64,000 nt of DNA from the NCBI GenBank assembly GCA_037833965.1, contig AP031356.1:9756501-9820500 (forward strand), in the 5' to 3' direction. A model generated the notes under the pieces. That model did no database searches. It saw only the letters and a program-made list of their open reading frames with translations, and was not told the DNA's origin. Source of the stretch: Marchantia polymorpha subsp. ruderalis. Lineage: Eukaryota > Streptophyta > Marchantiopsida > Marchantiales > Marchantiaceae. The translations under genes and the position numbers were made by a program. Positions 13,512-39,843 of this stretch are shown in pieces (the stretch's first letter is position 1; every line of letters begins with the position of its first letter).

Positions 13512-13546
13512 CAATCTAAAATCATAACTACCTAACACTCTACACT

Positions 13547-16197: not shown

Positions 16198-16202
16198 CTT
16201 CC

Positions 16203-17190: not shown

Positions 17191-18739
17191 AGTCGATTGG
17201 CACCCTGCGTACACAACACCCTGCTATTTCCACATCGATCTCGGGTGGCCCTTGGTCTTCGCTCTCCACTTGATATACTTGAGAGGATGTGGATGCGCGC
17301 GGCTTCCGCGGATGCCGTAGCGAAAGCATCAACATTCTCCGATACGTCTTATTGTCCTCCAAGAGCTGCTTGAACGTGATGTTCACTTTTTGACTCCCGA
17401 GATCTTCGACCAAGTCATAGTGGGCGCGTTGGGTCGCCGGGGTCGGCGACGACGCTCTGCGAGGTTCCACGGTGGCTGCCAACTTCACCCCAAGGGAGGA
17501 TGTCAAGTCTGGCCGCGGCGGGTCCTTTTGAGTGCGGATCGCTTCCTTCAACAGGTTGGCTACCTCGTTGCGGATATCCGGAGCATAGTCCCGTTTCAGT
17601 AGGCGCACTGGCTCGTCCTCGACTGCTGTCTGGGGGCGCACTGCTGGTGCCTCTCGCGTAGCCGAAGACTTCCGAGCAGGTCGCAAGTCGGACTTGCTGG
17701 ATGTCTTCTCCTTTCCTTTTCCCGTCCGGTCGTCGGCTCTCCGTTCGTGCTTGCGAGTGTCACGCTCTTGCTCCTTCGATTTCTTGGAACTACGAGTTTC
17801 GACCCGTGCGCACATAACCTCTTGTAATAACCCACCAAAGGCTAAAACTGCAGTATGGTGGTAAAAAGATCGAACCCACAGGGACAGAGGCAACACACAG
17901 AGTAAAAGTGTCACATTTAACAGACTTTTGGTAGAGTTTGAATTCTAGGCGACTGTCACTCCCAGAAATACTGCAGTGCTCGACTCGGAGGCTCGACTCG
18001 GAGGAGGATCTCAACTCGGAGGATGCTCGGAGGATGCACGGTACAGCTTGGTCACTCAACACACACACACACACCTGAAACTGGCAAAAAGCACAACTCG
18101 GAGGTCGGTCAGGACCTCCGCTTCGGATTTCAGGAGGAAAGTGTCTCGCAAGTTCACTCAGAGGTTCTGCAGGAAGTGCCTCCCACTCCGGCTTTTACTG
18201 CCCTTCCGCCAGGAACTAGCGGGGGTACCCGGACTGGACTTCTCACTTCGGAACGAAGCCTCTACGTACGCCGTGGACGTCACCCTCGACTATCACACAA
18301 AACGCAGGGAGTGCAGACCCGACTGAGAACTTACTGAAAACACGATCCAGTAACACACACACAACCTGAATTACAAACCAAGGTTTACACGAAGTAATGA
18401 AACTTCACATTGGCATTCAGGGGAAACTTCCCGTAGGAGTACAATCAGGATATGTCACTCGAAGGAGTAAGGGGGAACTGTTCAAGTATCTAACTCGCAG
18501 CCGGCTCTGAGTATCAGAAATCACCCGCAGGTGCAGATCCGCACTACTCAAGTCTCTAACCGGGTACTAGCTCTGAACATTCAGCCGAAGGCCTTCAACT
18601 ACAACATACGGTAACTTCGCTATGCTGCAGCTTCTCTACGTGGTGCCAGGACCAAAATGCACAAACACGCCAAGAAAGTGAGTTCCTGATCTGCACTTCC
18701 GAAACTGGAAGAGTCCCAAGGCAAAACGCCTTGATCTAC

Positions 18740-18745
18740 TTTATA
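18740..18745 (-). promoter_or_regulatory. TATA box of U4
   Basis: TATAAA on the minus strand (context GAGGGTATAAAGTAG), 34 bp after the ORF1 stop codon and about 920 bp before the end of the unit. Confidence 0.55.
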
Positions 18746-18778
18746 CCCTCAAAAGATCCTAACTAGCACTACGCTATC

Positions 18779-21334
18779 CTATCTACCACTCGCAGTATCT
18801 GCGCGAAACCAAACTACTCTACTGCACTCAGCAGATCCGGTGCTGCGCCTCCTGCGCGCCGGACTGCTCCGCGTACTATCTCTACCTTGCCAGTCTTCCG
18901 ACCGGCTGCGTAACCCCAGGCGTCGAAGCGCTGTGGTGACTTCCGACTGCAAGTGCGCCATAGTGTCGCGCGCACCCGACAAGAAGGTTTCTAATTTTCT
19001 CGCCACTCGCCGCCGACTCCGACTGTCACCTTCCGTCAATGCCGCCGCCCGAAGCTCGAACTCCCTGAGTGTGATCCTCTCTTGGGCTGCCACCTCCCAA
19101 TGGGTGTATCCTTTTAGACAACGAGTCACCTGTGCCGCCAACTCTCCTCGCGCCCTGCAGCTGCTCTCCACCTCGGCCAGCTGCATTTCTAATCCCGCAC
19201 GTTGTGCTCTCAAATCCGAGCACTCGGATTGCAAGTTGCACAACAACTCCTCATCCTCCTTGCGGGCTCTTTGACTTTCTTCTAAGGCGCGCGTCTGGCG
19301 CGCAAGCTCGGCTGCTAGGACATTGTTCTGTCTCCGCTCCTCCTGCAGTTCCAACTCGATCTTTGCCCGTATTAGTTCGGCATCCGCCTGACTTTTCGTC
19401 GCCGCATCCTCCTTCTGCTGCTGCAAGGCTTGGTATAGCTTCTGGGTGACCGCCAGGTGTTGTTTGAGGGCGGTGTTCCTTTCCACATATACTTGGCAAC
19501 TAGAGGCCCACTTTGCCACCTTGATCCTCGTCCTTCGCCTGATAGTCTCCACATAAGACTGCGGTTTTAAGGCACTTCCGTATTTGGATGTCTTGCGATC
19601 CAGATATCGCAGGAGTGGAACTATCTGTTCGCACAGCACCCCTGTTGGCGTTTTCTGCACCGAATCCGCTTCCTGCTCTTCCGAGCTCGTATCATCCTCA
19701 GTCTCGAGGATTTCAGTCGCCACCGAATCCCTTGGCGACTCCCTGGAACTGTGGCGCGCAGCAGCTTCTGCTGCGACTGTTGCTCCACTGCCTGCTAAAA
19801 TATCCAGGGCAGTGGGAGATCCCACTGCTTGAGCCCCTGTTCCGGCTCGATCTTCGGTTTGTGAAGGGGTCGACGCCGCAGTGACTTTTGTCACTCTTGC
19901 ACCGCCCGCTTCTGCTGCCTGTCCTTCCGGCGCAATCTGCGCGGAAGGTGTCCTTGCTGAAGGTGCGTCCGCCGAAGGCGTCCGCACACTGGTCGTTGGC
20001 CCCATCCGTCTCGCAGTCGGCGAATCCGGCTGACTCTCTGTTGTCCGACTCGCAGTCGGCCGACCAGCAGTTGTCCGACTGGGAGTCGGATACACCCTGC
20101 GCGTCTTGACTCCACTTGGCCTGCTTGTTGGGGGCGTTCTTCCAGAAGTGCCTTCCGCCGAAGACGACCCTTTGAGGATTGTTGGCTCGTCAGCCAAACT
20201 CTCTTCTGCTTCCGGCCTGCTGTCCGGTTCAACGCGCCGTTCAGTTGGCCTTCCTTCCGCTTGTCGACCTTCAGTCATCCGACTCGCAGTCGGCCGGCTG
20301 TCAGTCCGTCCATCTCCTCCCGAAGGCCGTGGTGCCTTCTGTGCAGAGGTATCTGCCGTCTTCCCTAGAATCTGAGCGATTATCTCTTCCTGTGTGAGAT
20401 TCCGCCGGGTCGGAGTTCGCCTGGTCTCCTCAGTAACAGTTGGCATTTTGCGTGCCCTCTGTTTTGGTCGACTGTGAGGCTCGGGGGTGGGCCGACCACG
20501 AGTCGGCGCAGCTGGTACTTCCGGCTGCCTGTCCTCAGGTCTCTCATCCCACTTCCGCTTTCGCGGAATGCGCTCACTTCGACGTTCTTCTGCTGCTCTT
20601 GCTGGAGCCGGAGCCGGAGGCGTACTGGCAGGTTCCTCGTCCGGATCTGTGTCTACTTCGGCCTCCCCCGAATATCTTCCTGGATAAGTCCGGGTCAGCT
20701 GCGGAAACCGAGTCTTCTCAGCATTCGTCAAACATCCCATCGCCCGGTAAAACACGATTAAGTAAGGCGATAGATGATTGAGCGTTCCTCCCCTCTCTTC
20801 TTGCGCATGTTGGCGCGTCACCTTCCACAGGAGCCGTGCCCAATGCACCGGAGCTCCTGACAACACTAGCTCCACGAACTCTACCTGCCAACCATGCATG
20901 TAAGCGGTCTTGGTCGGCTGCAATATCTGCAGCAATGCCGTCGCGACATTTCTCCGCAATCGATCCTTGTAATCCCGTGTCCGGAAACCGTTCTTGGGAT
21001 GTCTAGCCACCTTGAAGAGCTCATTGTAAGAGACTTCTTCCTCCTGGGACACTTTCACGCTGTCGGCCTCGAAGAGGAGATCCCCTTCCTCGCCGGCACA
21101 CCTGCCCAACACCTGCGCCCAATTGCAAATGTCCCATCTCTCTGGATGTGGGCGAAATCCGCGAGAAGGCTTGTGTCTCTCTTGCAGATACTCGCGCACC
21201 ATCTCCGGACATGTCCAATTCCACCCCCATAGGAGAAAATCGAGCTTCAGCCTCAACAGCACATCTTGAAATGCGCGTAGACCGATCTGCGGCACCCTGA
21301 GTGGAGACACTCGCAGCTGGGGAACCTTCGACAT
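18779..21334 (-). CDS. ORF1 of U4, 851-residue element protein of unknown function
   Basis: The only uninterrupted ORF1 in the nest. I chose the Met at 21,334 because the sequence around it (AACGCAATG, then MSK or MTR) is shared by other units, while the upstream extension to 21,424 is not. Layout: residues about 1-210 form a conserved, Trp-rich globular-looking block (VPQIGLRAFQDVL, KLDFLLWGWNW, GFRPHPERWDICNWAQVLGR, KNGFRTRDYKDRLRRNVATA). About 215-560 are acidic, then Pro/Ser/Thr/Arg-rich and low complexity. About 565-590 are conserved (EQIVPLLRYLDRKTSKYG). About 610-730 are a probable coiled coil. About 735-830 are a basic conserved tail (HWEVAAQERITLREFELRAA, SRSRRRVARKLETFL). No zinc knuckle, protease, RT or integrase motif. 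It could be a gag-like or DNA/RNA-binding accessory protein; I do not recognise a family. It lies between the leader and the TATA box of the unit. Confidence 0.7.
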   Translation of the reverse strand: MSKVPQLRVSPLRVPQIGLRAFQDVLLRLKLDFLLWGWNWTCPEMVREYLQERHKPSRGFRPHPERWDICNWAQVLGRCAGEEGDLLFEADSVKVSQEEEVSYNELFKVARHPKNGFRTRDYKDRLRRNVATALLQILQPTKTAYMHGWQVEFVELVLSGAPVHWARLLWKVTRQHAQEERGGTLNHLSPYLIVFYRAMGCLTNAEKTRFPQLTRTYPGRYSGEAEVDTDPDEEPASTPPAPAPARAAEERRSERIPRKRKWDERPEDRQPEVPAAPTRGRPTPEPHSRPKQRARKMPTVTEETRRTPTRRNLTQEEIIAQILGKTADTSAQKAPRPSGGDGRTDSRPTASRMTEGRQAEGRPTERRVEPDSRPEAEESLADEPTILKGSSSAEGTSGRTPPTSRPSGVKTRRVYPTPSRTTAGRPTASRTTESQPDSPTARRMGPTTSVRTPSADAPSARTPSAQIAPEGQAAEAGGARVTKVTAASTPSQTEDRAGTGAQAVGSPTALDILAGSGATVAAEAAARHSSRESPRDSVATEILETEDDTSSEEQEADSVQKTPTGVLCEQIVPLLRYLDRKTSKYGSALKPQSYVETIRRRTRIKVAKWASSCQVYVERNTALKQHLAVTQKLYQALQQQKEDAATKSQADAELIRAKIELELQEERRQNNVLAAELARQTRALEESQRARKEDEELLCNLQSECSDLRAQRAGLEMQLAEVESSCRARGELAAQVTRCLKGYTHWEVAAQERITLREFELRAAALTEGDSRSRRRVARKLETFLSGARDTMAHLQSEVTTALRRLGLRSRSEDWQGRDSTRSSPARRRRSTGSAECSRVVWFRADTASGR
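20045..20090. repeat. U4-type palindromes in ORF1
   Basis: CCGACT-CGC-AGTCGG at 20,045-20,059 and TCCGACT-GGG-AGTCGGA at 20,074-20,090. Further copies of the same stem lie near 20,025 and 20,280. They fall in the low-complexity middle of ORF1, where other units carry palindromes of different sequence. Confidence 0.75.
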
Positions 21335-24262
21335 TGCGTTGCCTGCACACACAAACGTTCTCCCTTCCGCTCGCTCTCTCACAATCGCCACTGCGCGTCG
21401 GCCACTCAAGCACTGACTGCTCACTCTCTCTGCGCTCGTTCAAGATCGCTACTCCAATTCTTTCAAGGTCCGCCAAGATCCTTGCGCAACTCGTCTCCGC
21501 CCTCTCTACTCTCACTGCAGGTCGCTCCGCCCTTGCGCGTAATCTTGGAACTGGAAATCGCAAAGTCAAGAATGAGAGAATGAGACTGGAGCGCAGTCTT
21601 TTCTTCTCCGATTTCAAGAACGTCCAACGTTCTTACTGGTTGCAACGTACGCAGCCGGCTATACGGCTTAACGGTTCGCCCTTTGCATGCGCGAATTCAC
21701 GTCTCCGCATTGCGCGCATTTGCATGCTTAAACGTTGAATTCTCCCGCCGCCGCCACCTTCCGGACTCGAGTCCGCTGCAGGGTATACGTCGGCCCTGTT
21801 GTCTTTTCCTAACCCGCCCTTCTCCGGAGGCGTGTCGCCGCTGGTGTGTTCATTATCCGTCGGCGCCTTGCTGGAGGCGCACATCCAGCCGGAGCGAATT
21901 ACGCCGGCGCGCAGTCGTACCGCCTATTTTGTCCTTTATGCCTCGTCCGTTGCTGCCAGCGCATATCCGTCAGCGCAACTCATGCCAGCGCATCCGGCCG
22001 TCAGCGCCACGTCGGAGGCGTACATCCGACCGGCGCTTTCCTTCCATGAACAGCCGCCAAGGGCGCTTCCGACTCTGAGTTGGTTTCCTCCTGTGAGCGC
22101 GTGATTCCGCCGAAGGCGCATCGCCGAGGGCGTACGGGAATCCTTTCCGGCTGTGAACCCTAGCGCGAACGGCGCATGTCCGGCTACGAGTTTTCCGATG
22201 CTCATAACTTCTCCATTCCTGATCCATCTCCGGCGCTCTTGGACTCGTTAGAACGAGCGTCCCGAGCTCTTTCTAATGCAACTTCAACCAACTGGATCTA
22301 CCGTGTATCCCGATTGTTATGAAGGTTTTCCCTTTCCGCGCTAGCGGCGCTTCGCCGAAGGCGCACTCATGGTCGGATGCCTTTAGAGGTCCGGGCCCTT
22401 CTCCTGACGTCTTTAGCAAAACCTCCTCCTGAGGTGTCTGCGCCGGAAGCGTAGCTTCCTTATACGCTAGAGGCGCGTGAGTAGAGATACCTCAAAAAGG
22501 AGCTTTTGCCGAAGGCGCCGAAGACGTTGGCGTTGGTACATCCGACTACGTGATTCTTTGTGCCCTCGTGACGATCTCATCAATCCACTCTATTTAGCGT
22601 ACCCTTCTCTAGCTACAAACACTGCTTTGGTACTAGTTTTCTAAAATTGTTTAAATTCTGCAAAAAAAACAAAAAGTGTGTTACCACACCTCTTCAGCCG
22701 GCCATTCTTCGTCTTCGTCATCCCCGTCTGAACCTACTTCGACCTGGTTAACTTGGACGTCCTCCTTGGCAGGAGTGTTCACAAATCGTACCGCTGGCCG
22801 AGGGACTGGTGGCTGATCACACTCTGGCGCAGTATGCCCGATCTTCTTGCAATTACTACATGTCGGAGCATAATCTTTTCGCCTTTTTGGATGGGGACAC
22901 TGCGGTGAGAAGTGCCCAACTTCCCCGCAGTTATAACAAGCTCGCGGTGGCGGTGGGTCAAACGTCCCTGGAGGTGCTCTCCGCCTCACGGGTACCGTAG
23001 TGGCCCGATCCACCGGAATATATCGTGGGACTTGCATTGCTGAAACTGCAGGAGGGGTAGGAACCGACTGGACGGCGTAGGCTGTTTCTTCGCTAGCCTC
23101 TCCATAGTACTGAGGGTGCTCTCCATAGTACGGTTGTGCCCACTCTACTGCGTTGACTGGATATGACGGACGGGTGGTAAGGCACTCGGTGTTTGCATGT
23201 CCCACCGCCCCGCACGTAGTACACCATAAGTTCGCCCGCACTCTCCCGGGTGATTTTCGGCGATCATGCCCGCCTACCACTTGAACCTTGAGATCGGCGA
23301 AGTCCTTCACAAGGGTCTCCATCTTCGAAGCTATGTCTCCCGGCGCTCTGTCCGTAGTCACTCGTCGGGTGCCCTTTTTCTTCGCTGACCCATGCTTCTT
23401 CCTCTTCTTCTCCTCCTCCGACGATGAAGTTTCCTCTTCTTCGGATGAGGAACGGTTCTCGTCCGAAGACGATTCCTCCGATGACGGAGTTGTACCTCTA
23501 CGTCGTCTTCGTCCTCCCTTCGGTTTTCGCTCCTTCGACTCCCGTCTCTCTCTCCCTCTTCGGTTGAGAGTGGAAGTTTCGAAGGCTTCTGCCGATGCAA
23601 TCACATCCTCAATAGTGTCGCACTTGCTGCGTCGGCAAAAAGTCTCCATCTCCCGAGTTAAACCGGTCACGTACCAATCCACAGCTTGTTGTACCGAGAA
23701 AGGGGACCCTAGTCCTGTTTTCGGTATTCTGTCGAGGAGGTCCAGAAATCTCTCAGTGTAGTCACGCAGACTCTCCTTCTTCTCTCGCTGCAGATTACGT
23801 AACTTTGTCAAAACCCGGCTGTCGTAGCCGAGCTCGCGAAAGCGGCGAAGGAACTTCTCCTTCAGCTGGGCCCATGTTGTCAACCCAGTCGGATCGATGC
23901 TCTCGTGATTGTACCAACTCCTCGCTTTCTTCCGCAGAAGGCTTGGAAAGATCCTTAGTCGGTCGTCGTCTGCGATCTCGCGATTGGCAATAGACACCGA
24001 TTCGAACAACTTGATGTATGAATCTGCATCGTCGTCATCCCCACTCCCTTTGTACTTCGGGTAGGAATGTTTAGTAATCGGCTGAGGTAGCCGCACATTG
24101 GCTTGTCCGTCCGCCATCGGTGTGTCTGTCGACGGTTCTCGGGCGGTCGGTTCTACTTCACTAGGCGGGTCCGTGCAAGGAATATCTAGTAGAACGGTAA
24201 GCACCAAGTTTGGTTCCGAGTCGCCGGGGGTAGGTTCCCCAAGGATGTCGGCCGAACTAGGC

Positions 24263-24898
24263 TTAGGTACTCTTTTTGGTGTTTTCTTGTTTTGACGCCG
24301 TGTCTCTTCCACGGCCTTCTCTGAATCTTGTCTGAAGATGGTTTAGAGTTCCCCCCTTCTCCTCAAACGCGTGCTGTCGCATCACCCTGTGCAGGATGCT
24401 CGCCCAGTGAATTGGAGTTCCCTCGATGACGCACTCCACAAAAGAGACCTGCCACAATGTGATGTAGCAGGCGCGGTGCGGCTGCAGTAATTGCATCAGC
24501 GCCGCGGACAAAGTCCGGCGAAATCGATCCTTGTAATCACGGGTCCTGTACCCATTCTTGGTTGACCTCCCGGTCTTGAACAGCTCCACAAATTGCGCCT
24601 CTTCTTGCTTGGTCACCTTGATGCTCTCACTGTCGAAAAGGAGATGCCCTGGCATGCCAGCACATCTTCCCAACGCCTGCGCCCAATCTTGGACTGTCCA
24701 CCGGTCAACATGCGGACGCAATCCGCGCGAGGGTGGTCCCTGTGGCTCTAGCCACTCGCGCACCATATTCGCACAGATGTAATTCCATCCCCATAGCAAG
24801 AAATCGAGCTTTCTTGCTATTAAGCGCTCCTCAAAAGCGCGCAGCCCGTTCTGCGGCAGGCGAAGTGGCACCATCCGCAATCTGCTCGGTCTCGTCAT
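24263..24898 (-). pseudogene. ORF1 N-terminal block of U3, truncated and fused to gag leader
   Basis: From the shared Met at 24,898 (an upstream in-frame ATG exists at 25,150) it reads the conserved ORF1 block: LPQNGLRAFEERLIARKLDF, GLRPHVDRWTVQDWAQALGR and NGYRTRDYKDRFRRTLSAAL, up to EEKGGTLNHL. At about 24,336 it leaves the family sequence and runs about 24 codons into gag leader in the wrong frame. The gag frame (start 24,312) overlaps its end. So this is the N-terminal quarter of ORF1, nearly identical to U5, joined to gag by a deletion or recombination. Confidence 0.8.
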
Positions 24899-27595
24899 TG
24901 CGTTCCTGGGGTTCGCTCGCCCGCTCATTCTACTTCCGCACTGCCCGCGTTTCTTTCTCTCTCGGCAAACTCTAATCGCCCTCAATTCCAAATCACGCGC
25001 ACTCACTTCTCCCTCAATCAACAAGAAATCTCCTGTGCGACGACGTCGAGACTGTTCCGCAGCCAGCAGATGGATGCGCGCAGCGCGCACAAGAGATTGG
25101 AATCGCGAATTCAAGAATGGGACGTTCTCCGCCGCCCGGTCGAAGGTCATGGTCGGCTCTTGGTCGTGAAGAACGTCTCACTTGATGGCCGCGCCGGCTG
25201 TACGCTGGAACGGTCTTCGCTCTCACGCGCGGCTTCACGCTCCGCCGTCGTCGATTAAACTCTCACGCTCGAATTGGCGGATTTGAACTCCGCGAGCGTG
25301 TCACCCTGCGGACATGGGGGCGTAGCGCCGAAGGCGAGTTTTCCGCCTTGCGCGGTACACTTGTTCGTACCGCCCCTCAGCCAATCCCCCTTTGCCTTGA
25401 CGCATGTGTCCGCATGTCGGACAAAAATTCAACTCCTGCCTGTGCGCAGGCAGGAGCCTCGGCGGATTCTCCGCCGGCGCGGAACTTGAACATCCTCTTG
25501 TGCACAGGCGTTCGCCTGTGCGCAGGCGAATTCCGTCCGCGGCGCTGCGCTGGCGCGGAAGGCGTTGACCGTGGTCAGCCGTCTCCGTCCAGTCTGTCCG
25601 TTCCTTGTCTCTCCGTCGGCGCTTCCGCCGCCGCAACTCAGTCCGTCCAAGAGCGCATCCACCCGTGCCGTCCGCATGGTCCGTACCGATTGGATTACCC
25701 TGGCGGCTCTTTCGACGTACGCGGCGCTGCGCTGGCGCGGAAGGCGCCGTACACTTTCTACCTCACAAGGCGCATTTCTAGGGCCCAAGGCGGATTTTCC
25801 GCCGACGCCGATGCGCCTGTGCACAGGCGTTCGCCTGTGCGTAGGCGGACTTCGCGCCTTCCCTAACCCTACTTCGCCTGTGCACAGGCGAACGCCTTCG
25901 TCCGTGCATAGGACAAAACTTGATTCCCCCTTCCGCGTAGGCGGAATTCGCGCCGGTGGCGAACTCCTTCCGCCGTAGGCGACCGCCTCCGTTTCTTCCT
26001 GTAGCGATAACTCCCTAAGTCCTCGTCCGTTCCAAGCGTTCTTGGGCTCGTTGGAATCAGCGCGTCGAGCTCTTTCCAACGGGACCCTAACTTGGTCAAG
26101 GCGCCCGAGGGTTGACCTAATTACGGAGGGTTTCCCTACAGCCGCGGACGCAACCTCCGAAGGCGGGTTTTGCGCCTTGCGCCGTAGAGATCCTAACTGC
26201 AGAGCTCGCAGGGAGGGTGGTGCCTGTCCTTACTGCTGCACCCCAAATCCCAGATTCTACAAGATCCCTCGAGAATCCCCGCGATCTTCCGGATTCATTC
26301 TGTTTTGATGTACCGAAGGCTATTTACAATGCTGCCAGGGTACAGTTTTCCAAAAATGTTTTAATTTCCTCAAAATTGCCAAAAGTGGGGTACCACACTT
26401 CCGCCGAAGGCGCATCCTTCCACCGAAGGAGCATCCTAGAGGCGAAGGCATTACCTTCCGCCGAATGCGAACCCTAACGACTAAGACGGCGTTGGGGCGA
26501 AGGAATCTACCGCCGAAGGCATAGTCTAGTGACGAGGTCGTTTTCCCTTGACGAAAGCGTTCAGTGTCACATGCTTCATACGTCTTCAGCGAAAGCTCGT
26601 TTGCAGGCGTCTGAGCCGAAGGCGTGTAATAACCCACCAAAGGCTAAAACTGCAATATAGTGGTAGAAAGGTCGAACCCACAGGGACATAGGCAACACAC
26701 AAAGTACAAAGTGTCACGTTTAACAGCCTATTGAAGAGTTTGAATTCTCAGGCGACTGTCACTCCAAGAAATACTGCAAGTGTTCACTCGGAGATCACTT
26801 GGAGGTTGCACAGTGCGGCGTAGTTCACTCAACACACACACACCTGAAACTATAGAAACACAACTCAGAGATCGGTTAGGATCTCTACTTAAGATTTCAG
26901 GGGGCAAGTCTCTCGTGAATACACTCAGCGAACCTGCGGGTAGTGACTTCCAACTCCGGCTTTTACAACCCTTCCACTAGTTTCTGCTAGCACAGGGAAT
27001 CCGGATTGGACTTCCTACTTCGGATCGAAGTCACTCACACGCGGTGAACAACACACTCAACTCACAAAACGCGCAGAGAACACATGTCTGAACTGAGAGA
27101 CTCAACTGAGAAACGATCCAGTAACATATCATAACAGTCTATTGAAGAGTTTGAATTCTTAGGCACTTGTCATTCCCAGAAACACTACAGGGGTTGCCCT
27201 GAAGGCACCTGCTGCAGTGTAACCTGAATTACAACCAAGGCTTACTCGAAGTAACAAAACTTCACTTTGGCATTCAGGGGAAAAATCCCGAAGGAGTACA
27301 ATCAGGAACAATCACTCGAAAGTGTAAGGGGGAAACTGTTCAAGTATCTAACTAGTAACTAGCTCTAAGCATCGGCTATCACCCGTAGGTGTAGATCCAA
27401 ACTACTCAAGTCTCTAACCAGTACACTAGCTCTGAACATTCGGCCGAAGGCCTTCAGCTACAAAATGCGGATCGCCAAGTTGTAGCTTCTCTTGCGTGAT
27501 GACAGAACTAAGGACACAAACACGCAGAGAAAATGGGTTCCTCATCTGCACTTCCGAAACTGGGAAAAATCCCAAGGCAAGACGCCTTGGACTAC

Positions 27596-27601
27596 TTTAT
27601 A
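27596..27601 (-). promoter_or_regulatory. TATA box of U2
   Basis: TATAAA on the minus strand (context GAAGGTATAAAGTAG), about 970 bp before the end of U2. Confidence 0.55.
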
Positions 27602-28655
27602 CCTTCTAAGTCCTAACTAACACTACACTCTACATTACGCTACCCTACACGCCTGCACAAAACCACGCTACGCTTCTGCACTCTTGTAATAACCCACTAA
27701 AGGCTAAAACTGCAATATAGTGGTAGAAAGGTCGAACCCACAGGGACAGAGGAACACACAGGGTACAAAGTGTCACGTTTAACAGACTATTGAGGAGTTT
27801 GAATTCTCAGGCAACTGTCACTCCCAGAAATACTGCAAGTGTCCACTCGGAGCGCACTCGGAGGTCGCACAGTGCAGCGTAACACACACACACACACACA
27901 CACCTGAAACTACAGAAACACAACCCAGAGATCCGTTAGGACCTCTACTCAAGATTTCAGGGGGGAAAAGTCTCTCGCGAGCACACTCGGCTAAGCTGCC
28001 GGTAGTGACTTCCAACTCCGGCTTTTACAACACTTCCACTAGCTTGCTGCTAGTGTAGGAAACCCGGTTTGGACTGCCTACTTCGGATCGAAGTCACTCA
28101 TACGCGGTGAACAACACTCTCAACTCACAAAACGCGCAGAGAACACAGGTCCGCACTGAAGGACTCACTGAGAAACATTCCAGTAACACAACAACAGTCT
28201 ATTGAAGAGTTTGAATTCTCAGGCACTTGTCATTCCCAGAAATACTACAGGGGTTACCCTCAAGGCACCTGCTGCAGCGTAACCTGAATTTACAACCAAG
28301 GCTTACACGAAGTAGCAAAACTTCACTTTGGCATTATGGGGAAAAATCCCAAGGAGTACAATCAGAAAGAAACACTCGAAGGTGTAGGGGCGAAACTGTT
28401 CAAGTATCTAACTAGTCACTGGCTCTGAGCATCGGCAGTCACCCGCAGGTGCAGATCCGAACTACTCAAGTCTCTAACCAATGTACTAGCTCTGAACATT
28501 CGGCCGAAGGCCTTCAGCTACAAAATGCGGAACGCTAAGTTGTAACTCCTCCTGCGTGGTGACAGAACTCAAGGACACAAACACGCAAAGGAAATGGGTT
28601 CCTGATCTATACTTCTGAGTTTGGGAAAGAACCCCAGGCAAAACGCCTGGAACTG

Positions 28656-28662: not shown

Positions 28663-28698
28663 CCTTCTAAGTCCTACCTAGCACTACACTGCACTACG

Positions 28699-31587
28699 CT
28701 ACACGCCTGCACGGAACCACGCTACACTACACTCCGCGGAACCTGTACTACGTCTCCTGCGCGGCCGACTGCCGCGCACTAACTCCCTACCCTGCCAATC
28801 TTCCGCTCGACTGCGCAGTCCCAAACGCTGCAACGCCGCGGACACCTCCACTTCGAGGGCGGACATGGTATCCTGTGCCTTCGACAGAAAGGCATCGAGC
28901 TTCTTTGCTACCTTCCGTCGACTCCTACTGTCGCCTGACAACAACCCGGCTGCGCGCAATTCAAACTCACGCAGTGTGAGTTTCTCCTGCGCCTTCACTT
29001 CCCAGTGGGCGTAGCCCTTGAGACAGTGGGCGACACGCCTCGCCGTCTCCACCTTCGTGCGATCCGCCTCCTTCCTGCGATCCTCTTCAATTATCACTAA
29101 TTGCGATTCGGCTTCAGCACGTTGCGCTCTCAATTCGCCACACTCTGACTGTAACCTGTGGATTAACTCTTCATCCGCCTGCCGTGCGAGCTGACATTGT
29201 TCCAACAACCGCGTCTGTCGCACGAGCTCCTCTGACAAAATCCGATTTTGGGCCTGCTCAGAAATGAGTGCTTCCTTGACCTTCACCTGCTCCTTGGTGA
29301 GCTCGTCCAGTTTCTCATCCTTCATCTTCTCGGAGTGCTTGTAGAATTTCTGATTAAGTTTGTACTGACCCCACAAGCATGCATGCTTCTCCTTCAATTC
29401 CCTCAACTCCTAGTCCACTCTAGCTAACAGCTTGCTGGTGTGGACTTTAGTGCGAGTCCGCCTGCGCACTAACTCGATGTAAGATCCCGGCTGGAGTGGG
29501 TCGGCGTATTTGTCGACCTTGCGATCCAAGTACCTCAGCAACGGAATCACCTGCTCAGAGAGCGCCGCCGCCGGCGCTCCAACAATTTCCTCCTCCTCCT
29601 CCTCGGTGTCTTCTGCTCCTAACATTTCTTCCGTGGAGCCCCCGTCGTCATCATCCGAGTGGAGAATTTCAGTCGCCATTGATTGCGTCGGCGACTGCCC
29701 CGAGTGGGGCTGCACGTCATCGACGTGTGCTGCCTGCGAAGGTACGGCTGCAGCCTCGCTGCTCGTCGCCAAAATGTCTAAGGCGGAAGGCGAATGTACC
29801 CGTGCGGCATCCCCGTCGCTCGCTTGTTGGTTGTCTACCGCGTCCTCTCTGCCGCCGTCGCCCGCCGCCGAAGGCGATCGAGCGGAGGGTGGCTGCGCGG
29901 GGTTTGATTGCGCATTGCGCACCGAAATTTCATCCCGCGGACAGTCACTCCGCTCCACCGTCTGTTGCTGCTCCCTTGATCGGTCCGTGGGGGCTGTGCC
30001 CGGCCTGTGCGCAGGCGCAATTGCCGGCGCCTTGTCCGCCGCAGGCGTAGCGCCGCGGACATCCATCGCCGAAGGCGACATGGCCGGGGGCCGCTCGCCC
30101 GATGTCCCTTGGCCTATAGGCCCTACCGCCGAAGGCGCATCTATCGGCGGGCTTCCCGCCGATGGTGCAGCCTCCGCACGCTCCCTGCTCGTATCTCCTC
30201 GGCTCGAAGGCCCTGGCGCCGAAGGCGCGAATTGCGGCGCGTGGTGCGCCGGAGGGTCTGGCCCCGAGGGCCGGTGTCTCGTAGGCGGTTCTTCCGCCGG
30301 CTCCTTCCCCTTCCTACGTTGGAACGGGGGTGATTCTTGCCTGTGCACAGGCGGCACGTGTGGAGGTGTCCTGTGCACAGGCGACCTGTGCACAGGTGAG
30401 CGCCTGTGCACAGGCGGACTGCTCCTTCCCACGCGTAAGCGTAGATCCACGTCCACTTGTGACCGCCTGTCCGCGGAGGCTCGTCCGTCCGCGGAGGCTC
30501 GTCCGTGCGCAAACGGAACATCTGTCCGCATCGCACGTGGTAACTCCGGAGGCCCTTGGCCCGTAGGCGGCCTCTCTCCCGTCGAGGTTGCAGCGTGGCC
30601 CGTTGCTCCTGCGGTCGTCCGCCCTTCCTCATGCTTCTCTGGCGACGCACTTCCTTTCTCCGTCGCAATCGTCGCCGTGTCCGCACTGTCGGCTGGTAAC
30701 ACCAGTCTGCGTGCCTTCTGCTTCGGCCGGCTGTATGACTCGCACAGCGGCCGCGGTCGAATGGGAGCAGAGGGTTCTTGATGCTGCTCCTCTTCAGACT
30801 CTTCCCTCCATCGCCGCTTCCGCGGCACTCGTGCTGCAGGAGTGTGTCTCCCTTCGTCCCTCCGCCTTGATGGGGTAGAAGTCGGTGACTCCTCTGCATC
30901 AGTGTCGACCTCATTCTCCCGCACATACTTCCCGGGATGGTCGATGGACAATGGCGGAAAATGTTCAAGCTCCGCCGCTGTCAAACAATTCCGCTGTCGA
31001 TAAAAATTGATGAGGAAAGGAGAAAGATGGTTTAGAGTTCCCCCCTTCTCCTCAAACGCGTGCTGTCGCATCACCCTGTGCAGGATGCTCGCCCAGTGAA
31101 TTGGAGTTCCCTCGATGACGCACTCCACAAAAGAGACCTGCCACAATGTGATGTAGCAGGCGCGGTGTGGCTGCAGTAATTGCATCAGCGCCGCGGACAA
31201 GGTCCGGCGAAATCGATCCTTGTAATCACGGGTCCTGTACCCATTCTTGGTAGACCTCCCGGTCTTGAACAGCTCCACAAATTGCGCCTCTTCCAGCTTG
31301 GTCACCTTGATGCTCTCACTGTCGAAAAGGAGATGCCCTGGCATGCCAGCACATCTTCCCAACGCCTGCGCCCAATCTTGGACTGTCCACTGATCAACAT
31401 GCGGACGCAAGCCGCGCGAGGGTGGTCCCTGTGGCTCTAGCCACTCGCGCACCATATTCGCACAGATGTAGTTCCATCCCCATAGCAAGAAATCGAGCTT
31501 TCTTGCTATTAAGCGCTCCTCGAAAGCGCGCAGCCCGTTCTGTGGTAGGCGAAGTGGCACCATCCGCAATCTGCTCGGTCTCGTCAT
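28699..31587 (-). pseudogene. ORF1 of U5, single in-frame stop
   Basis: Same protein family as the U4 ORF1, about 960 codons from the shared Met at 31,587 (a longer in-frame start exists at 31,839). One TAG at 29,410-29,412 follows TSKLLARVD; U6 has CGA at that place, so a single change broke the frame. Otherwise it is open to 28,699. Conserved N-terminal Trp-rich block (31,587-30,950), long Pro/Ser/Arg-rich middle with APSA and PVHR repeats (30,900-29,800), LRYLDRKVDKYADPLQPGSY (about 29,480-29,540), coiled coil, and basic tail ending RRRRSTGSAECSVAWF. Function unknown. Stop-codon readthrough cannot be excluded. Confidence 0.75.
30339..30416. repeat. U5-type palindromes in ORF1 (centre GTGCAC)
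   Basis: Perfect palindromes GCCTGTGCACAGGC (30,339-30,352), ACCTGTGCACAGGT (30,384-30,397) and CGCCTGTGCACAGGCG (30,401-30,416). The same type occurs in the leaders of U5 and U3 (for example near 32,130-32,210 and 25,440-25,535). They encode PVHR-like repeats here but are equally dense in the non-coding leader. Confidence 0.85.
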
Positions 31588-33022
31588 TGCGTTCCTGGGG
31601 TTCGCTCGCCCGCTCATCCTACTTCCGCACCGCCCGAGCTTCTTCCTCTCTCGGCAAACTCTAATCGCCCTCAATTCCAAATCACGCGCATTCACTTCTC
31701 CCTCAATCAACAAGAAATCTCCTGTGCGACGACGTCGAGAATGTTTAGCAGCCAGCAGATGGATGCGCGCAGCGCGCACAAGAGATTGGAATCGCGAATT
31801 CAAGAATGGGACGTTCTCCGCCGCCCGGTCGAAGGTCATGGTCGGCTCTTGCTCGTGAAGAACGTCTCACTTGATGGCCGCGCCGGCTGTACGCTGGAAC
31901 GGTCTTCGCTCTCACGCGCGGCTTCACGCTCCGCCGTCGTCGATTAAACTCTCACGCTCGAATTGGCGGATTTGAACTCCGCGAGCGTATTACCCCGCGG
32001 ACATGGGGGCGTAGCGCCGAAGGCGAGTCTTCCGCCTTGCGCGGTACACTTGTTCGTACCGCCCCTCGGCCAATCCCCCTCTGCCTTGACGCGTGTGTCC
32101 GCATGTCGGACAAAAGTTCAACTCCTGCCTGTGCGCAGGCAGGAGCCTCGGCAGATGCTCCGCCGGCACGGAACTTCATCCTCCTGTGCACAGGCGGTCG
32201 CCTGTGCGCAGGCGAATTCCGTGCGCGGCGTCGCGCTGGCGCGGAAGGCGTTGACCGTGGTCAGCCGTCTCCGTCCAGTCTGTCCGTTCCTTGTCTCTTC
32301 GTCGGCGCTTCCGCCGCCGCAACTCCGTCCGTCCAAGAGCGCATCCACCCGTCCCGTCCGCATGGTCCGTACCGATTTGATTACTCTGACGGCTCTTCCG
32401 CCGTACGCGGCGCTGCGCTGGCGCGGAAGGCGCCGTACACTTTCTACCTCACAAGGCGCATTTCTAGGGCCCAAGGCGGATTTTCCGCCGACGCCGAAGC
32501 GCATGTGCACAGGCGAACGCCTTCGTCCGCGCATAGGACAAAACTTGATTCCCCCTTCCGCGTAGGCGGAATTCGCGCCGGTGGCGAACTCCTTCCGCCG
32601 TAGGCGACCGCCTCCGTTTCTTCCAATAGTGATAACTCCCTAAGTCCTCATCCGTTCCAAGCATTCTTGGACTCGTTGGAATCAGTGCGTCGAGCTCTTT
32701 CCAACGGGACCCTAACTTGGTCAAGGCGCCCGAGGGTTGACCTAATTATGGAGGGTTTCCCTACAGCCGCGGACGCAACCTCCGAAGGCGGGTTTTGCGC
32801 CTTGCGTCGTAGGGGTCCTAACTGCAGAGCTCGCAGGGAGGGTGGTGCCTGTCCTTACTGCTGCACCCCAAATCCCAGATTCTACAAGATCCCTCGAGAA
32901 TCCCCGCGATCTTCCGGATTCACTCCGTTTTGATGTACCGAAGGCTATTTACAATGCTGCCAGGGTACAGTTTTCCAAAAATGTTTTAATTTCCTCAAAA
33001 TTGCCAAAAGTGGGGTACCACA

Positions 33023-34462
33023 ACTCTGCAGATCCTGTACTTCGCCTTCTGCGCGACGGACTGCCGCGCACTAACTCCCTACCTGACCAGTCTTTAGCTC
33101 GACTGCGCAGTCCCAGCCGCCGCAACACCGTAGTAACCTCCGTCTCGAGGGTGGCCATGACATCCCGCAACCTTGACTGAAACCAATCTAACTTCTTTGC
33201 CACTCGCCGCCGGCTCCGACTGTCACCCGACATCAAACCCGCCGCACGAAGCTCTAACTCGCGCAGTGTGAGTTTCTCCTGCGCAGCCACTTCCCAGAGG
33301 GTGTAACCTCTGAGAGAGTGGTTGACTCGCCTCACCAACTCCTCTTCCGTGCGATCTGCCTCCCGCCGGCGATCGTCTTCAAACCCTACTAACTGCAACT
33401 CTGCGTCCGCACGCTGCGCTCTCAATTCCCCGCACTCTGATTGCAGTTTGCGGATTAACTCTTCATCCGCCTGACGTGCGAGCTGACACTGCTCCAGCAA
33501 CCGTGTCTGCCGCACGAGCTCCTCTGACAAATTTTGATTCTAAGTCTGCTAAGAATCCAGCTCATCTGTGAGCTTCGCTTTCTCCTTGGCGAACTCCTTC
33601 TTCGCCTCCTCAAACTGCTCATCGCGCACCTTGTCGACGGCCTTGTGCACCTTCCGCAAAAGAGCAATGTGGCCCAGCAGGCACTCATTCTTCTCCCACA
33701 GATCTTTAATGTCCCCGTCCAGGCGTGCCAACAACTTGCTGGTGCGGACTTTAGTGCGAGTCCGCCTACGCACTAACTCGACGTAGGACCCAGGCTGGCT
33801 GGGGTCTGCATACTTCGTCACCTTGCGATTGAGATACCTCAGCAGAGGTACCACCTGCTCGCAAAGTGCTGCCGTCGGCGTGCCTGCCACCGATTGCTCC
33901 TCCTCCTCGCCCGATACCGATTCTCCTTCTTCGTCATCCTCCAAATTGATGTTTTTGGTCGCCACTGAATTCTTTGGTGATTCTCGTGAGTTGAGCTTCG
34001 TAGCGTCTGCGTCGTCTGCTGCCGCTATTGCCTCACTGCTCGCGGCCAAAATGTCTAAGGCGGTGGGGGATTTTGGTTGTGACAAACTCGCACCGCTCGC
34101 CTGTCTTATTACTACCAACTCCGCATCGCCGAAGGCGTTTGTGCGGAAGGTGTTTGTGCGGAAGGCAATTGTGCGGATTACACACGTGCTTCTCCCTTCT
34201 GCTTGTCCTTCCGCTCCTTCGATAGGTCCTGCTTCAAAGTTGCTTTCGCCGAAGGCGGCTCGCATGAAGTTCCTTGGGCCGAAGGCCCTTGAGCCGAAGG
34301 CGCATCTTCCGCCGGCTCCTTTCCCTTCCTCCGCTGCGCCGAAGGCGACTGCGCCGAAGACGCTCGAGCCGAAGGCCCCAGCCCCGAAGGCGAGTCCGCG
34401 TACGGTGCTTGTGCGGAACACCTATCCGTTGCCGGCACATTCATCGGTGCCGCGTGTCGTCT
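33023..34462 (-). pseudogene. ORF1 of U2, middle and C-terminal part
   Basis: Continues the U2 ORF1 after the U6 insertion. APSA/GPSA repeats at 34,250-34,440, then ALCEQVVPLLRYLNRKVTKY (about 33,820-33,880), RRRTRTKVRTSKLLARLD, a coiled coil with a stop or shift near 33,540, and the basic tail (VAAQEKLTLRELELRAAGLM, SRSRRRVAKKLDWF). It ends at RRRRSTGSAE, where U5 entered. The two short frames after this point run into U5 and are artefacts. Not functional. Confidence 0.8.
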
Positions 34463-35422
34463 TGTAATAACCCACTAAAGGCTAAAACTGTAGTATAGTG
34501 GTAGAAAGGTCGAACCCACAGGTACAGAGGAACACACAGGGTACAAAGTGTCAGACAGTGTTTAACAGACTATTGAGGAGTTTGAATTCTCAGGCTACTG
34601 TCACTTCCAGAAATACTGCAAGTGTCCACTCAGAGCGCACTCGGAGGTCGCACAGTGAAACTACACACACACACTTGAAACTACAGAAACACGACCCAGA
34701 GATCCGTAAGGACCTCTACTCAAGATTTCAGGGGGAAGGTCTCTCAAGAGTACACTCAGCGAAGCTGCGGGTAGTGACTCCCAACTCCGGCTTTTACAAC
34801 ACTTCCACTAGCTTGCTGCTAGCGTAGGAAACCCGGTTTGGACTGCCTACTTCGGATCGAAGTCACGCATACGCGGTGAACAACACTCTCAACTCACAAA
34901 ACGCGCAGAGAACACATGTCTGCACTGAAGGACTCACTGAGAAACATTCCAGTAACACACCATAACAGTCTATTGAAGAGTTTGAATTCTTAGGCACTTG
35001 TCATTCCCAGAAATACTACAGGGGTTACCCTCAAGGCACCTGCTGCAGCGTAACCTGAATTTACAACCAAGGCTTACACGAAGTAGCAAAACTTCACTTT
35101 GGCATTCAGGGGAAAAATCCCAAGGAGTACAATTAGGAACAAACACTCGAAGGTGTAGGGGCGAAACTATTCAAGTATCTAACTAGTCACTGGCTCTGAG
35201 CATCGGCAATCACCCGCAGGTGTAGATAACTACTCAAGTCTCTAACCAATGTGCTAGCTCTAAACATTCGGCCGAAGGCCTTCAACTACAAAATGCGGAT
35301 CGCCAAGTTGTAGCTTCTCTTGCGTGGTGACAGAACTAAGGACACAAACACGCAGAGAAAATGAGTTCCTGATCTGCACTTCTGATGTTGGGAAAGATCA
35401 CAAGGCAAGACGCCTTGAACTA

Positions 35423-35429
35423 TTTTATA
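35423..35429 (-). promoter_or_regulatory. TATA box of U6
   Basis: TATAAAA on the minus strand (context GAAGGTATAAAATAG), about 960 bp before the unit end. The position is conserved with the other units. Confidence 0.55.
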
Positions 35430-35484
35430 CCTTCTAAGTCCTAACTAGCACTACACTGCACTACGCCACACGCCTGCACGGAAC

Positions 35485-38309
35485 CACGCTACACTACACT
35501 CCGCGGAACTTGTGCTTCGCCTCCTGCGCGACGGACTGCCGCGCACTAACTCCCTACCCTGCCAGTCTTCAGCTCGACTGCGCAGTCCCAAACGCTACAA
35601 CGCCGCGGACAGCTCCGCCTCGAGGGTGGACATGGTATCCCGCGCCTTCGACAGAAAGGAGTCTAACTTCTTCGCTACCCGCCGCCGGCTCCTACTGTCA
35701 CCTGTCAACAACCCGGCTACACGAAGCTCTAACTCACGCAGTGTGAGTTTCTACTACGCCGCCACTTCCCAGTGGGCGTAGCCCTTGAGACAGTGGGCGA
35801 CTCGCCTCGCCATCTCTTCCTTCGTGCGATCTGCCTCTCGCCTGCGATCGTCTTCAATTACTACCAACTGCGATTCGGCCTCCGCACGTTGAGCTCTCAA
35901 TTCTCCGCACTCCGATTGCAGCCTGCGGATCAAATCCTCATCCGCCTGTCGTGCGAGCTAACACTCTGCCAACAACCGGGTCTGTCACACGAGCTCCTCT
36001 GACAGAACCTGATTCTAAGTCTTCTCAGAAATCAGTTCTTCTGTGGTCCTCACCACATCCCTGGTGAGCTCTTCCAGTCTCTCCTTCTTCAACGTGTCGT
36101 AGTGGGTGTGCGACTTCCGCACGAGATTATACTGTCCCCACAAGCAGTCATACTGCTCCTGCAACTCCTTAAGTTCTCGGTCCACCCGAGCTAGCAGCTT
36201 GCTGGTGTGGACTTTAGTGCGAGTCCGCCTGCGCACTAACTCGACGTAGGACCCAGGCTGGCGAGGATCCGGGTATTTATCAAATTTGCGATCCAAGTAC
36301 CTCAGCAGCGGTACTACCGGCTCACAAAGCGCCGCGGCCGGCGCACCAACGATTTCCTCCTCCTCCTCCTCGGTGTCTCCCGATCCCGACATTGCTTCCG
36401 TGGATCCTCCTTCCTCATCATCCGAGGGAAGGATTTCGGTCGCCATTGATTGCGTTGGCGACTGGCCCGAGTGGGGCTGCGAATGGTCTGCGGGTGCTGC
36501 CGCCGATGGCACTCCTGCACCTTCGCTGCTCCCCGCTAAAATGTCCAAGGCGGTGGGTGAATGTGGCCGTGCTACATCCCCATCATCCGCCTGTCGAGCG
36601 TCGATTGTCGCTCCTTCGCCACCGACGTCCGCCGCCGAAGGCGATTGAGCGGGATGTGTCTGCGCGGGGTGTAATTGCGCATCGCGCACTCGAATTTTTT
36701 CCCGCGGACGTACAATCTGCTCCTCCGTTAGGTCCTGCTCCCTCGATTGGTCCTGCGCGAGGGCTGCGTCTGGCTTGCGCGTAGGCGCAATTTCCGGCGC
36801 CTGGTCCGCCGCAGGCGCAGCGCTGAAGGCGTCTATCGCTGAAGGCGACAGAACCGAAGGCCGCTCGCCTGATGTACCTGGGCCCGAAGGCCCTACCGCC
36901 GAAGGCGCATCTGCCGGCGGATTACCCGCCGAAGGTGCGGTCTCCGCACGCTCCTTGCTAAAGACTCGATGGCCCAAAGGCCCTGGCGCCGAAGGCGCAA
37001 ATCGCGGCGCGTTATACGCCGGAGGGCCTTGCCCCGAAGGCCCTTGACCCGAAGGCGGATCTTCCGCCAGCTCCTTCCCCTTCCTACCTTGTACCGGGGG
37101 TGAATCTTGCCTACTCGTAGGCGGCCGCCTATGCGTAGGCGAACTTTCTCTGCCTACGCGTAGGCAGAGGTCCACGTCTGCAAGAGGTCGCTTATCCGCT
37201 GGAAATCGCCTGTGCGTAGGCGGAACACTCGTCCGCATCGCACGTGGTAACTCCGGAGGACCTTGTCCCGCAGGCCCCTGGCCCGAAGGCCGCCTCTCGT
37301 CCGCCGGAGGCGTAGCGTGGTCCGCCGCTCCTGCAGACGTCCGCGCTCTCCCGATCGTCTCCGGTGACACACTTCCCTTCTCCGTGACGATCGTCGCCGT
37401 GTCCGCGCTGCTGGCTCGTAGCACAAGCCTGCGCGCCTTCTGCTTCGGCCGGCTGCACACTTCGTGCAGTGGCCGCTGTCGTATGGGAGCAGTGGGTTCT
37501 CGATGTTGCTCCTCCTCTGGTTCCTCTCTCCATCTCCGCTTCCGCGACACTCTTGCTGCGGGTGTGCTTCTTCCCTCGTCCCGCCGGGTCGGCGGAGTAG
37601 AAGCTGGTGAATCCTCTGCATCGGTGTCGACCTCGTTATCCCGCACATACTTCCCGGGATGGTCGACGGACAATGACGGAAAGCGAGCGAGCTCCGCCGC
37701 GGTCAAACAGTTCCTCTGTCGATAGAAGTTTATCAAGAAAAGGGAGAGGTGATTGAGAGTTCCCCTCTTCTCCTCGTAGGCGTGCTGTCGCATCACCCTA
37801 TGCAGGATGCTCGCCCAGTGAACTGGAGCTCCGGCCAAGATGAGCTCCACAAAAGAAACCTGCCACAAGGTGATGTACGAGGTGCGGTGTGGCTGCAGCA
37901 ATTGTAGCAGCGCCGCCGCTACAGTTTGGCGGAAACGATCTTTGTAGTCGCGGGTCTTGTACCCGTTCTTGGTAGACCTCTCCCGCTTGAACAATTCCAC
38001 AAATTGCGCTTCGTCCTGCTTCGTCACCTTGATGCTCTCACTATCAAATAGGAGGTACCCGTCGGTGCCGGCACACCTCCCCAATGCCTGCGTCCAATCG
38101 TGGACGGTCCACCGATCTACGTGCGGACGCAATCCGCGCGTAGGTTGTCGCTCCGCGTCCAGCCATTCGCGCACCATGTCTACACATATGTAATTCCACC
38201 CCCACAGCAAGAAATCAAGCTTTCTTGCAATCAGCCGCTCCTCGAAAGCACGCAACCCGTTCTGTGGAAGCCGGAGCGGCAGCATCCGCAACCTGTTCAC
38301 TTTTGACAT
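35485..38309 (-). pseudogene. ORF1 of U6, open for most of its length
   Basis: From the shared Met at 38,309 (longer in-frame start at 38,561) it is open to 36,015, covering the Trp-rich N-terminal block (KLDFLLWGWNYICVDMVREW), the acidic and Pro/Ser-rich middle, PVVPLLRYLDRKFDKYPD and the start of the coiled coil. Beyond the stop at 36,015 the same frame continues with several more stops (LVRQTR, LRAQRAEAESQLV, GYAHWEV, RRRVAKKLDSFLSKARDTM) to about 35,485. So the C-terminal quarter is broken. Same family of unknown function as the U4 ORF1. Confidence 0.75.
37108..37169. repeat. U6-type palindromes in ORF1 (centre ACGCGT and variants)
   Basis: GCCTACTCGTAGGC-like copies near 37,109 and a perfect 22-bp palindrome at 37,148-37,169 (core TGCCTACGCGTAGGCA). 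The preceding bases (CCTTCCCCTTCCTAC, then GGGGGTGA) match those before the U5 palindromes at 30,339. So U5 and U6 carry different palindromes at the same place. Confidence 0.8.
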
Positions 38310-39843
38310 TGCGTTCTTGAACTTTGCTTGCGCAACAACTCTCTCTCTGCTCTGCTCGAGCTTCTTGCTTCCTCTGCAAACTCTAATCTCCCTCAATTCC
38401 AAATCGCGCGCACTCAATTCTCTCTCAGTCACCAAGTAATCCTCCGCGCGGCGATGTCTAGAATGTTTCACAGCTAGCAGGTGGACGCGCGCAGCTCGCA
38501 CTAGAAAGTGAAATCGCGAATTCAAGAATGGGGCGTACTCCGTCTCCTGGTCAAAGGTCATGGTCGGCTCTTGGTCGTGAAGGTCGAATCACTTGATGGC
38601 CGCGCCGGCTCCGCGCTATAACGGCCTCCTCTCTCACGCGCGGCTTCACGCTCCGCCGACGCCGACTTAACTCACACGCTCGAATTGGCAATTTGAACTC
38701 CGCTAGCGTACTACGCCGCGGACATGGGTGCGTAGCGCCGAAGGCGGATTTCTCGCCTTGCGCGCTACACTCGTTCGTACTAATCTTTGGCCAATCCCGC
38801 TCCGCCGAAGGCGTTCGTCCGCGCATCGGACAAAAGTCGAACTCCCTTCTGCGTAGGCAGAACCCCCGGCGGAATCTCCGCCGGCGCGGAACTTCATCTG
38901 CCTGTGCGTAGGCGCTCGCCTACGCGTAGGCGAATTCCGTCCGCGTATCAAATGTTTGTCCGCGCCGATCCCTCGCCGTAGGCGCAGCGCCGAAGGCGGT
39001 TGTGCCGAAGGCGTTGACCGCGGTCAACAGACTCCGTCAAGTCTGTCCATTTCTCTCGCCTCTCCGTCGGCGCTCTTGTCTCCGTAACCCCGACCGGCCG
39101 AAGGCGCACTCATCCGTTCCGTACGTATAGTCCGTACGGATTTTACTACTCCGTTGGGTCCTCGCTTGTCCGCGCTGCTGAGCTGGCGCCGAAGGCGCCG
39201 TACAATTTCCAACCCCGAAGGCGCATTTCTAGGGCCGAAGGCGGATTTCCCGCCGACGCCGAAGCGCATGTGCGTATGCGAACTTCGCTCGTCCGCCTGC
39301 GCAGAGGTGTTAAGCCTCCCCGCCTTCGCGTAGGCGACATTCGCGGCGGACATCCCGCCGACGTCAAACCCTATTTCGCCTACGCGTAGGCGAACTTCCC
39401 TCGTCCGCGCATAGGACAAACTTTCCTTGCCTACTCGTAGGCGAGAAGCTGAGTGTCTTGCGACCTTCATAACTCCCGGAATCCTCCTCCGTTCGTGGCG
39501 TTCTTGGGCTCGTTAGAATCAGCGCGTCGAGCTCTTTCCAACGAGGCCCTAACCAAGTCGAGGCGTTTGGGAATTGATCAGGCTCTGAAGGATTCCTCTA
39601 GCGCCGAAGGCGGATTTTGCGCCTTGCGCCGAAGGGGTTATTACTTCAGAGCCCGCATGTAGGGCGGTGCCTGTCCCCGACGTTGCACCCAACTCCTGGA
39701 TTCTACGAGTTCTCTCGAGATTCTCTGCGATCTTCCAGTTTTACTCTATTTTGATGCACCGAGGGCTATTTACACTGCTGCCGCGGTACAGTTTTCCAAA
39801 AATGTTTTAATTTCCTCAAAAATACCAAAAGTGGGGTACCACA

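Follow-up and report, generated by a model that had tools for sequence, protein, structure and literature searches.

In mouse mammary tumour virus (MMTV) the sag open reading frame (ORF) has about 320 codons, the long terminal repeat (LTR) that holds it is about 1.3 kb long, and the main promoter is located downstream of this ORF. According to the available text of PMC9412291, the Sag/Naf ORF lies in sense in the U3 region, and hence in both LTRs, together with a U3 promoter that serves it. LTR retrotransposons with an additional ORF are known from plants as well. Athila, Bagy2, Grande, RIRE2 and Retand carry gag-pol and a further ORF 3′ of pol, which the available parts of PMC7264820 and PMC11963269 place internally, between pol and the 3′ LTR; additional ORFs are assigned to the internal region in PMC7264820. 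The rice elements Retrosat2 / FRetro3 combine very long LTRs (over 3.2 kb) with an extra ORF, ORF0, upstream of the gag-pol ORF, and the available sections of PMC3485330 describe plant LTRs as regulatory and the LTRs of these elements as coding no replication enzymes. The present work deals with a window of 64,000 nucleotides (the whole stretch of DNA analysed, C7:9756501-9820500) of Marchantia polymorpha subsp. ruderalis, which contains six nested units of a Ty3/gypsy-type retrotransposon whose giant LTRs carry a long sense ORF, here called ORF1. Genome-wide searches covered 241.5 Mb in nine contigs, among which C1 measures 5.6 Mb and C2–C7 and C9 measure 24–33 Mb.

The window units had been proposed, from the sequence-only reading, as possible solo LTRs of Ty3/gypsy type, and this was supported by the finding elsewhere in the genome of paired units flanking gag-pol. 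On contig C9, two 4,869-bp LTRs (loci L009 and L010), near-identical direct repeats with TG...CA ends and 3 mismatches (0.06%; 99.94% identical), flank a 5,790-bp internal region, with the 5-bp target-site duplication (TSD) TTCGC at the outer flanks. The internal region showed gag, CCHC, protease, RVT_1, RNase H, H2C2 and rve domains, in the protease–reverse transcriptase (RT)–RNase H–integrase order of Ty3/gypsy elements (Metaviridae). In both families of units, A and B, the primer-binding site (PBS) TGGCGCCGCTGCCGGGGA follows a 22-nt spacer behind the LTR end; on the inner side of the left LTR of L009/L010 this spacer is TAAGGAGCCGACAACTTCTTTT, followed by TGGCGCCGCTGCCGGGGAC. The PBS, named beforehand as a check, begins 23 nt after ...TTATTACA. 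The polypurine tract (PPT) GAGGAGGGGGGCA, also anticipated, directly adjoins TGTGGTA, the start of the 3′ LTR, in families A and B. A tRNA-like T-arm/acceptor end, GGTTCGATCCCCGGCAGCGGCG, was found at 33 putative tRNA places in the genome (29 exact) and, by sequence only, would pair with the PBS after CCA addition; as a guess, we take the primer to be tRNA-Asp. In the two internal regions read, a single in-frame stop (at 1246-1248 in L010 and at the corresponding position in L011) divides gag-protease from RT-integrase. The element runs LTR–PBS–gag-protease–(in-frame stop)–RT-RNase H-integrase–PPT–LTR. Each of five LTR pairs has its own 5-bp TSD, shared by its two outer flanks (L009/L010, L018/L019, L023/L024, L026/L027 and L033/L034). 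Since two such units flank gag-pol with PBS, PPT and 5-bp TSD, it is confirmed that units of the 17823-22688 type are the LTRs of an abundant Ty3/gypsy-type retrotransposon of Marchantia. As to the second, archaeal-type RNase H that marks the Tat/Ogre/Retand branch, only RT_RNaseH models were matched in L009/L010; the chromodomain at the integrase C-terminus, the mark of chromoviruses, gave no Chromo match at E ≤ 5 in the one RNase H-integrase ORF scanned.

ORF1 lies in sense between the PPT and the TATA box of the LTR, and comprises ~851 codons in family A and ~1,040 codons in family B. In 39/39 terminal modules the hexamer TATA(A/T)A marks the beginning of the terminal ~1 kb, at 0.92–0.99 kb from the LTR 3′ end (0.58 kb in the older unit U1), in agreement with the distance of about 0.96 kb read from the window. 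It stands just after the ORF1 stop, and 34 of 36 LTRs have no other such hexamer on their sense strand; hence the U3 region would measure ~4.0–4.4 kb and R-U5 ~0.9 kb, which fits the earlier proposal that U3 consists of leader plus ORF1 and that the terminal module is R-U5. Of 21 A LTRs, 19 had an intact ORF1 (849–851 codons from ATG), and so had 7 of 15 B LTRs (1,034–1,050 codons), one further B copy having 952; nine of the 40 fetched loci (L016, L017, L036, L038, L039, L040, L042, L046 and L051) were excluded from this count, their 5′ end being absent or the copy internally deleted or composite. Solo LTRs retained an intact ORF1 in 8/8 cases in family A, U6 of the window included, and in 4/9 in family B (L035, L044, L045 and L052; not L037, L040, L043, unit U3 and U4).

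The ratio of non-synonymous to synonymous polymorphism (pN/pS) over all pairs was 0.241 in frame for 15 A copies and 0.232 for 7 B copies, and when these alignments were read out of frame, the two shifted frames gave 1.58–1.82. Variable sites fell on the three codon positions as 34/28/96 in A (n = 158) and 54/53/160 in B (n = 267, U4 included). The corresponding substitution ratio (dN/dS) was 0.15–0.31 in 8 hand-picked within-family pairs and 0.17–0.22 in three A–B pairs, the latter with dS above 2 and near saturation. As judged from these patterns of substitution, ORF1 is under purifying selection.

Among the systems described above, MMTV with its sag ORF in U3 is the closest analogue, and it serves as our working model: in both, a sense ORF lies in U3, and in Marchantia it is intact and under selection, within U3 limits deduced from the PPT and the TATA box. 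MMTV is an animal betaretrovirus with env, whereas the Marchantia element has a plant pol of Ty3/gypsy order, for which the best-scoring named RT relatives were plant proteins; this pol places the element outside the MMTV group. By the MMTV sizes given above, ORF1 has about three times the length of sag, and the LTR about four times that of the MMTV LTR. From Athila, Bagy2, Grande, RIRE2 and Retand the element differs in that ORF1 lies beyond the PPT, in U3. A literature search for an ORF inside an LTR, with preprints and most subscription papers outside its scope, returned MMTV only and no plant case, so that, in the literature searched, a selected ORF inside the U3 of a plant Ty3/gypsy LTR would be new.

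Counts of sequence patterns over the whole genome, which tolerate at most one mismatch and differ among themselves in length and tolerance, gave 6,340 LTR 3′ ends, 1,355 LTR-PBS junctions and 1,159 PPT-LTR junctions; the reversed-pattern controls gave 0 in each case. As LTR ends far outnumber LTR-PBS junctions, most LTRs of the family look solo, and, assuming a single 3′ LTR partner per LTR-PBS junction, approximately 3,600 LTR ends would be solo or orphan. The terminal 978 bp of unit 17823-22688 served as the query for family A copies (40 full-length matches listed), and flank classes were assigned in both families by reading the flanking sequence. Twenty further A loci comprised 7 solo LTRs with perfect TSD, 4 left and 6 right LTRs, 1 within an array and 2 without the 5′ end; 20 B loci comprised 7 solo LTRs with TSD (1 internally deleted), 2 left, 3 right, 2 within arrays, 5 without the 5′ end and 1 composite. 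An LTR-plus-internal spacing was found for 20 of the 40 listed full-length A places (10,657–10,697 bp) and 8 of the 40 listed B places (11,159–11,204 bp). Neither outcome named beforehand as contrary to LTRs, single units only throughout the genome or a transposase of another class at these ends, was therefore seen. One array consists of five A places with four steps of exactly 10,662 bp. Head-to-tail arrays of near-constant period (these exact steps in A; 11.16–11.20 kb for gag of the unit U5 type) lie at C6:10772631-10815279, C7:8463763-8510057 and C4:20823179-20858401, and such arrays suggest unequal recombination between the giant LTRs. In addition, the PPT and LTR start with a TGTGGTAACCCAC end repeats at spacings of ~3.19, 2.96 and 1.01 kb (C3:17734510-17740917, C3:13096274-13099264 and C2:23113573-23114613, respectively); these may be truncated or tandem derivatives whose units are much shorter.

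The ORF1 protein has a conserved N-terminal part of ~230 aa, predicted to be helical, a Pro/Ser/Thr/Ala-rich middle and a C-terminus that, judged by eye, is coiled-coil-like, with a net charge of +17 in A and +10 in B. Three long ORF1 queries gave no Pfam match at E ≤ 0.001, a further scan gave weak rows only, with E above 1, and no convincing fold match was obtained for the protein. A diverged gag was considered and rejected: no alignment of ORF1 to the gag-protease ORF was better than E 0.5, and no gag model matched. Searches for relatives, in which only the ~8,000 candidates with the most words in common with the query were scored, returned named M. polymorpha proteins in 10/10 cases for an N-terminal query and in 38/43 for a profile, the other five being in unnamed data; an RT query, by contrast, returned 3,558 relatives. 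Identity to M. polymorpha relatives reached 91% for RT and 96% for ORF1, the latter between Mp_8g15400 (P0163) and the family A ORF1 over 58% of the query. Of practical use is that the 38 named M. polymorpha ‘hypothetical proteins’, Mp_8g15400 and AXG93 models among them, probably belong to ORF1 of this element. One gene model, P0170 (AXG93_725s1500), fuses the integrase end to ORF1, possibly by a splice.

The explanation that we prefer, with a probability of about 0.88 for the whole including its mechanism, is that the units are Ty3/gypsy-type LTRs in which ORF1 is a sense accessory gene inside U3. At each reverse transcription both LTRs receive all sequence between the PPT and R, so that ORF1, which lies there, is duplicated with the LTR and solo LTRs can keep it complete. 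Transcription is predicted to start ~30 nt past the TATA box, so that ORF1 would come last among the genes of the genomic RNA, within the 3′ LTR; its translation may proceed from a spliced or otherwise subgenomic message by way of the 3′ LTR copy, while the copies in 5′ and solo LTRs would need another promoter. The product would be an accessory protein, soluble and not of envelope type, with a disordered middle and a basic C-terminus; its probable targets, in trans, are element RNA, particles or silencing. A role at least partly in trans would fit one complete element, L023/L024, that seems to have been copied with a broken ORF1. An LTR left behind in the genome can double as a copy of the conserved ORF1 gene, and a conserved U3 gene of 850–1,050 codons, in a family of thousands of LTR copies, alters the reading of solo LTRs, of gene models and of element fitness in this plant lineage; the question of what a retrotransposon gains from a gene in every LTR also becomes testable. 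More speculatively, and in our opinion rather doubtful, a trans-acting gene after the PPT might make LTRs into gene copies. The formation of solo LTRs, as a rule a dead end, would then leave many complete ORF1 loci that continue to supply or squelch the family factor, and selection on both element and host would act on a dispersed LTR-borne gene family and not on full elements alone.

It is improbable that the units are LTRs in which ORF1 is a functionless captured passenger, open only through the youth of the copies. Against such a passenger speak the third-position excess, with pN/pS of 0.23–0.24 as opposed to more than 1.5 in the shifted frames, the A–B dN/dS of about 0.2, though with dS near saturation, and the six window units of different age, each of which holds ORF1 or what is left of it. 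On its side stand the broken copies of ORF1, which also weigh against an accessory gene. In L023/L024, a complete element with its own TSD, the identical ORF1 break occurs in both LTRs; either this element lacked an intact ORF1 when it was copied, or conversion came later. The array neighbours L047/L048 have a common ORF1 break as well, a case made ambiguous by array growth, which could explain it, and 8 of 15 B LTRs do not reach the full ORF1. Further points weigh against the preferred explanation. The leader diverges less than ORF1 synonymous sites (0.8% versus 4.3% in A, 3.9% versus 7.3% in B), and therefore selection or recombination acts outside ORF1 too; among A copies, including 17823-22688, either a constrained leader or a U3 region made mosaic by recombination may account for it. 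The fetched copies were chosen by how well they match the terminal 1 kb; this biases them to young copies and inflates the conservation of the terminal module. Finally, the structure model of the ORF1 N-domain is of low confidence (predicted local distance difference test, pLDDT, 62).

An accessory gene in U3 has also to be compared with a third gene of the envelope-like kind found in Athila or Bagy2 that is only placed after the PPT. ORF1 is in sense with gag-pol and 3′ of pol, the side on which the available text of PMC7264820 places plant env-like ORFs, but the two ORF1 proteins tested contain no stretch hydrophobic enough for a transmembrane segment (the highest 19-residue Kyte-Doolittle mean is 1.22 in A and 1.14 in B), the composition is charged, of low complexity and coiled-coil-like, and ORF1 lies in the U3 region and not between pol and the PPT; we therefore consider an envelope-like gene very unlikely, slightly more so than a passenger. 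Independent mobile elements of 5 kb with the same ends, for example a DNA transposon, would agree with the single appearance of most copies and with the 5-bp duplications of many. Pairs and arrays at fixed spacing, the PBS and PPT abutting the unit ends with gag-pol between them, and the lack of any match of ORF1 to a transposase family leave this origin a negligible chance.

All six nested units of the window are on the minus strand and each has a perfect 5-bp TSD; 5-bp TSDs had been noted from the sequence. With up to two mismatches the start motif gave 12 matches (0.79 expected; no shuffle reached 12): six on the minus strand, at the unit starts, and six on the plus strand, at the unit ends, which it recognises since the two ends form an imperfect inverted repeat. 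For the end motif there were 6 matches (1.07 expected; no shuffle reached 6). These matches bear out TG...CA termini with an imperfect inverted repeat, but the exact start string first given is absent from the window, the actual starts being TGTGGTAACACAC (17823-22688) and TGTGGTACCCCAC (27685-33022 and 34463-39843). The end GTGGGTTATTACA is exact in five of the six units, and no unit holds a second copy of either end apart from nested insertions, as stated earlier and as an LTR predicts. ORF1 or its remains lie between leader and terminal module in 6/6 units, and therefore the arrangement is older than the split of these subfamilies.

The innermost unit, U6 (17823..22688, 4,866 bp, TSD CCTCT), is a family A solo LTR inserted in U5 and 99.5% identical to the solo copy L013. 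Its ORF1 (18779..21334), inside the predicted U3 region, has 851 codons from ATG and 881 from an upstream GTG; TATAAA (18740..18745) is 33 nt past the ORF1 stop codon, and the U3/R border would lie ~30 nt further. The terminal module (17823..18739) is read as R-U5 from the TATA position and from the PBS that follows this end in full elements. The outermost unit, U1 (12933..42601, 3,769 bp net, TSD TACAC), is an older solo LTR that carries U2 and U5 and retains ORF1 remains at 14758-15777 and 13535-14623. U2 (26625..42319, 4,966 bp net, TSD AGGCG), also an older solo LTR, has ORF1 remains at 39981-40898 and 33075-34070 and carries two solo LTRs. One of these, the B-like unit U3 (34463..39843, 5,381 bp, TSD CGTCT), has an ORF1 (35469..38561, 71% to B) that is open for 848 codons and then broken; the other, U4 of family B (27685..33022, 5,338 bp, TSD ACTCT), has an ORF1 (28702..31839) 97% identical to an intact B copy, with the frame broken after codon 809. 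Intact B copies elsewhere encode 1,034–1,050 aa.

U5 (16203..26397, 5,324 bp net of U6, TSD CTTCC), inserted in U1, is a rearranged B-type unit. It keeps the first 272 codons of ORF1 (24335..25150 by tblastn, 97.8% to B), followed by a gag piece with Retrotrans_gag and CCHC matches upstream of the nested U6 (22689..24336) and a second gag/protease-start piece downstream of it (17192..17822), the BLAST match of each entering U6 by 2 bases. Its order is leader, 272 ORF1 codons, gag-protease piece and resumption ~20 nt beyond the position of the ORF1 stop, before the TATA box. Gag and a protease start between the same ends, as earlier described, are thus real in U5 but not general. Gag as a normal part of the U3 region was rejected: a 101-bp stretch across the first of the two junctions of U5, that of ORF1 with gag (near 24335), was fully matched only at the window itself, and the other 39 of the best 40 of 777 candidate places match only its first 52 bases, on the gag side. 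Most plausibly, U5 derives from a full element that underwent two internal deletions.

Outside these units, the window contains a 422-aa ORF on the minus strand (55022-56290), which matches the F-box at E 4.5e-05 and is probably an exon of a host gene, and a tandem repeat of period 114 with 3.2 copies (62412-62778).
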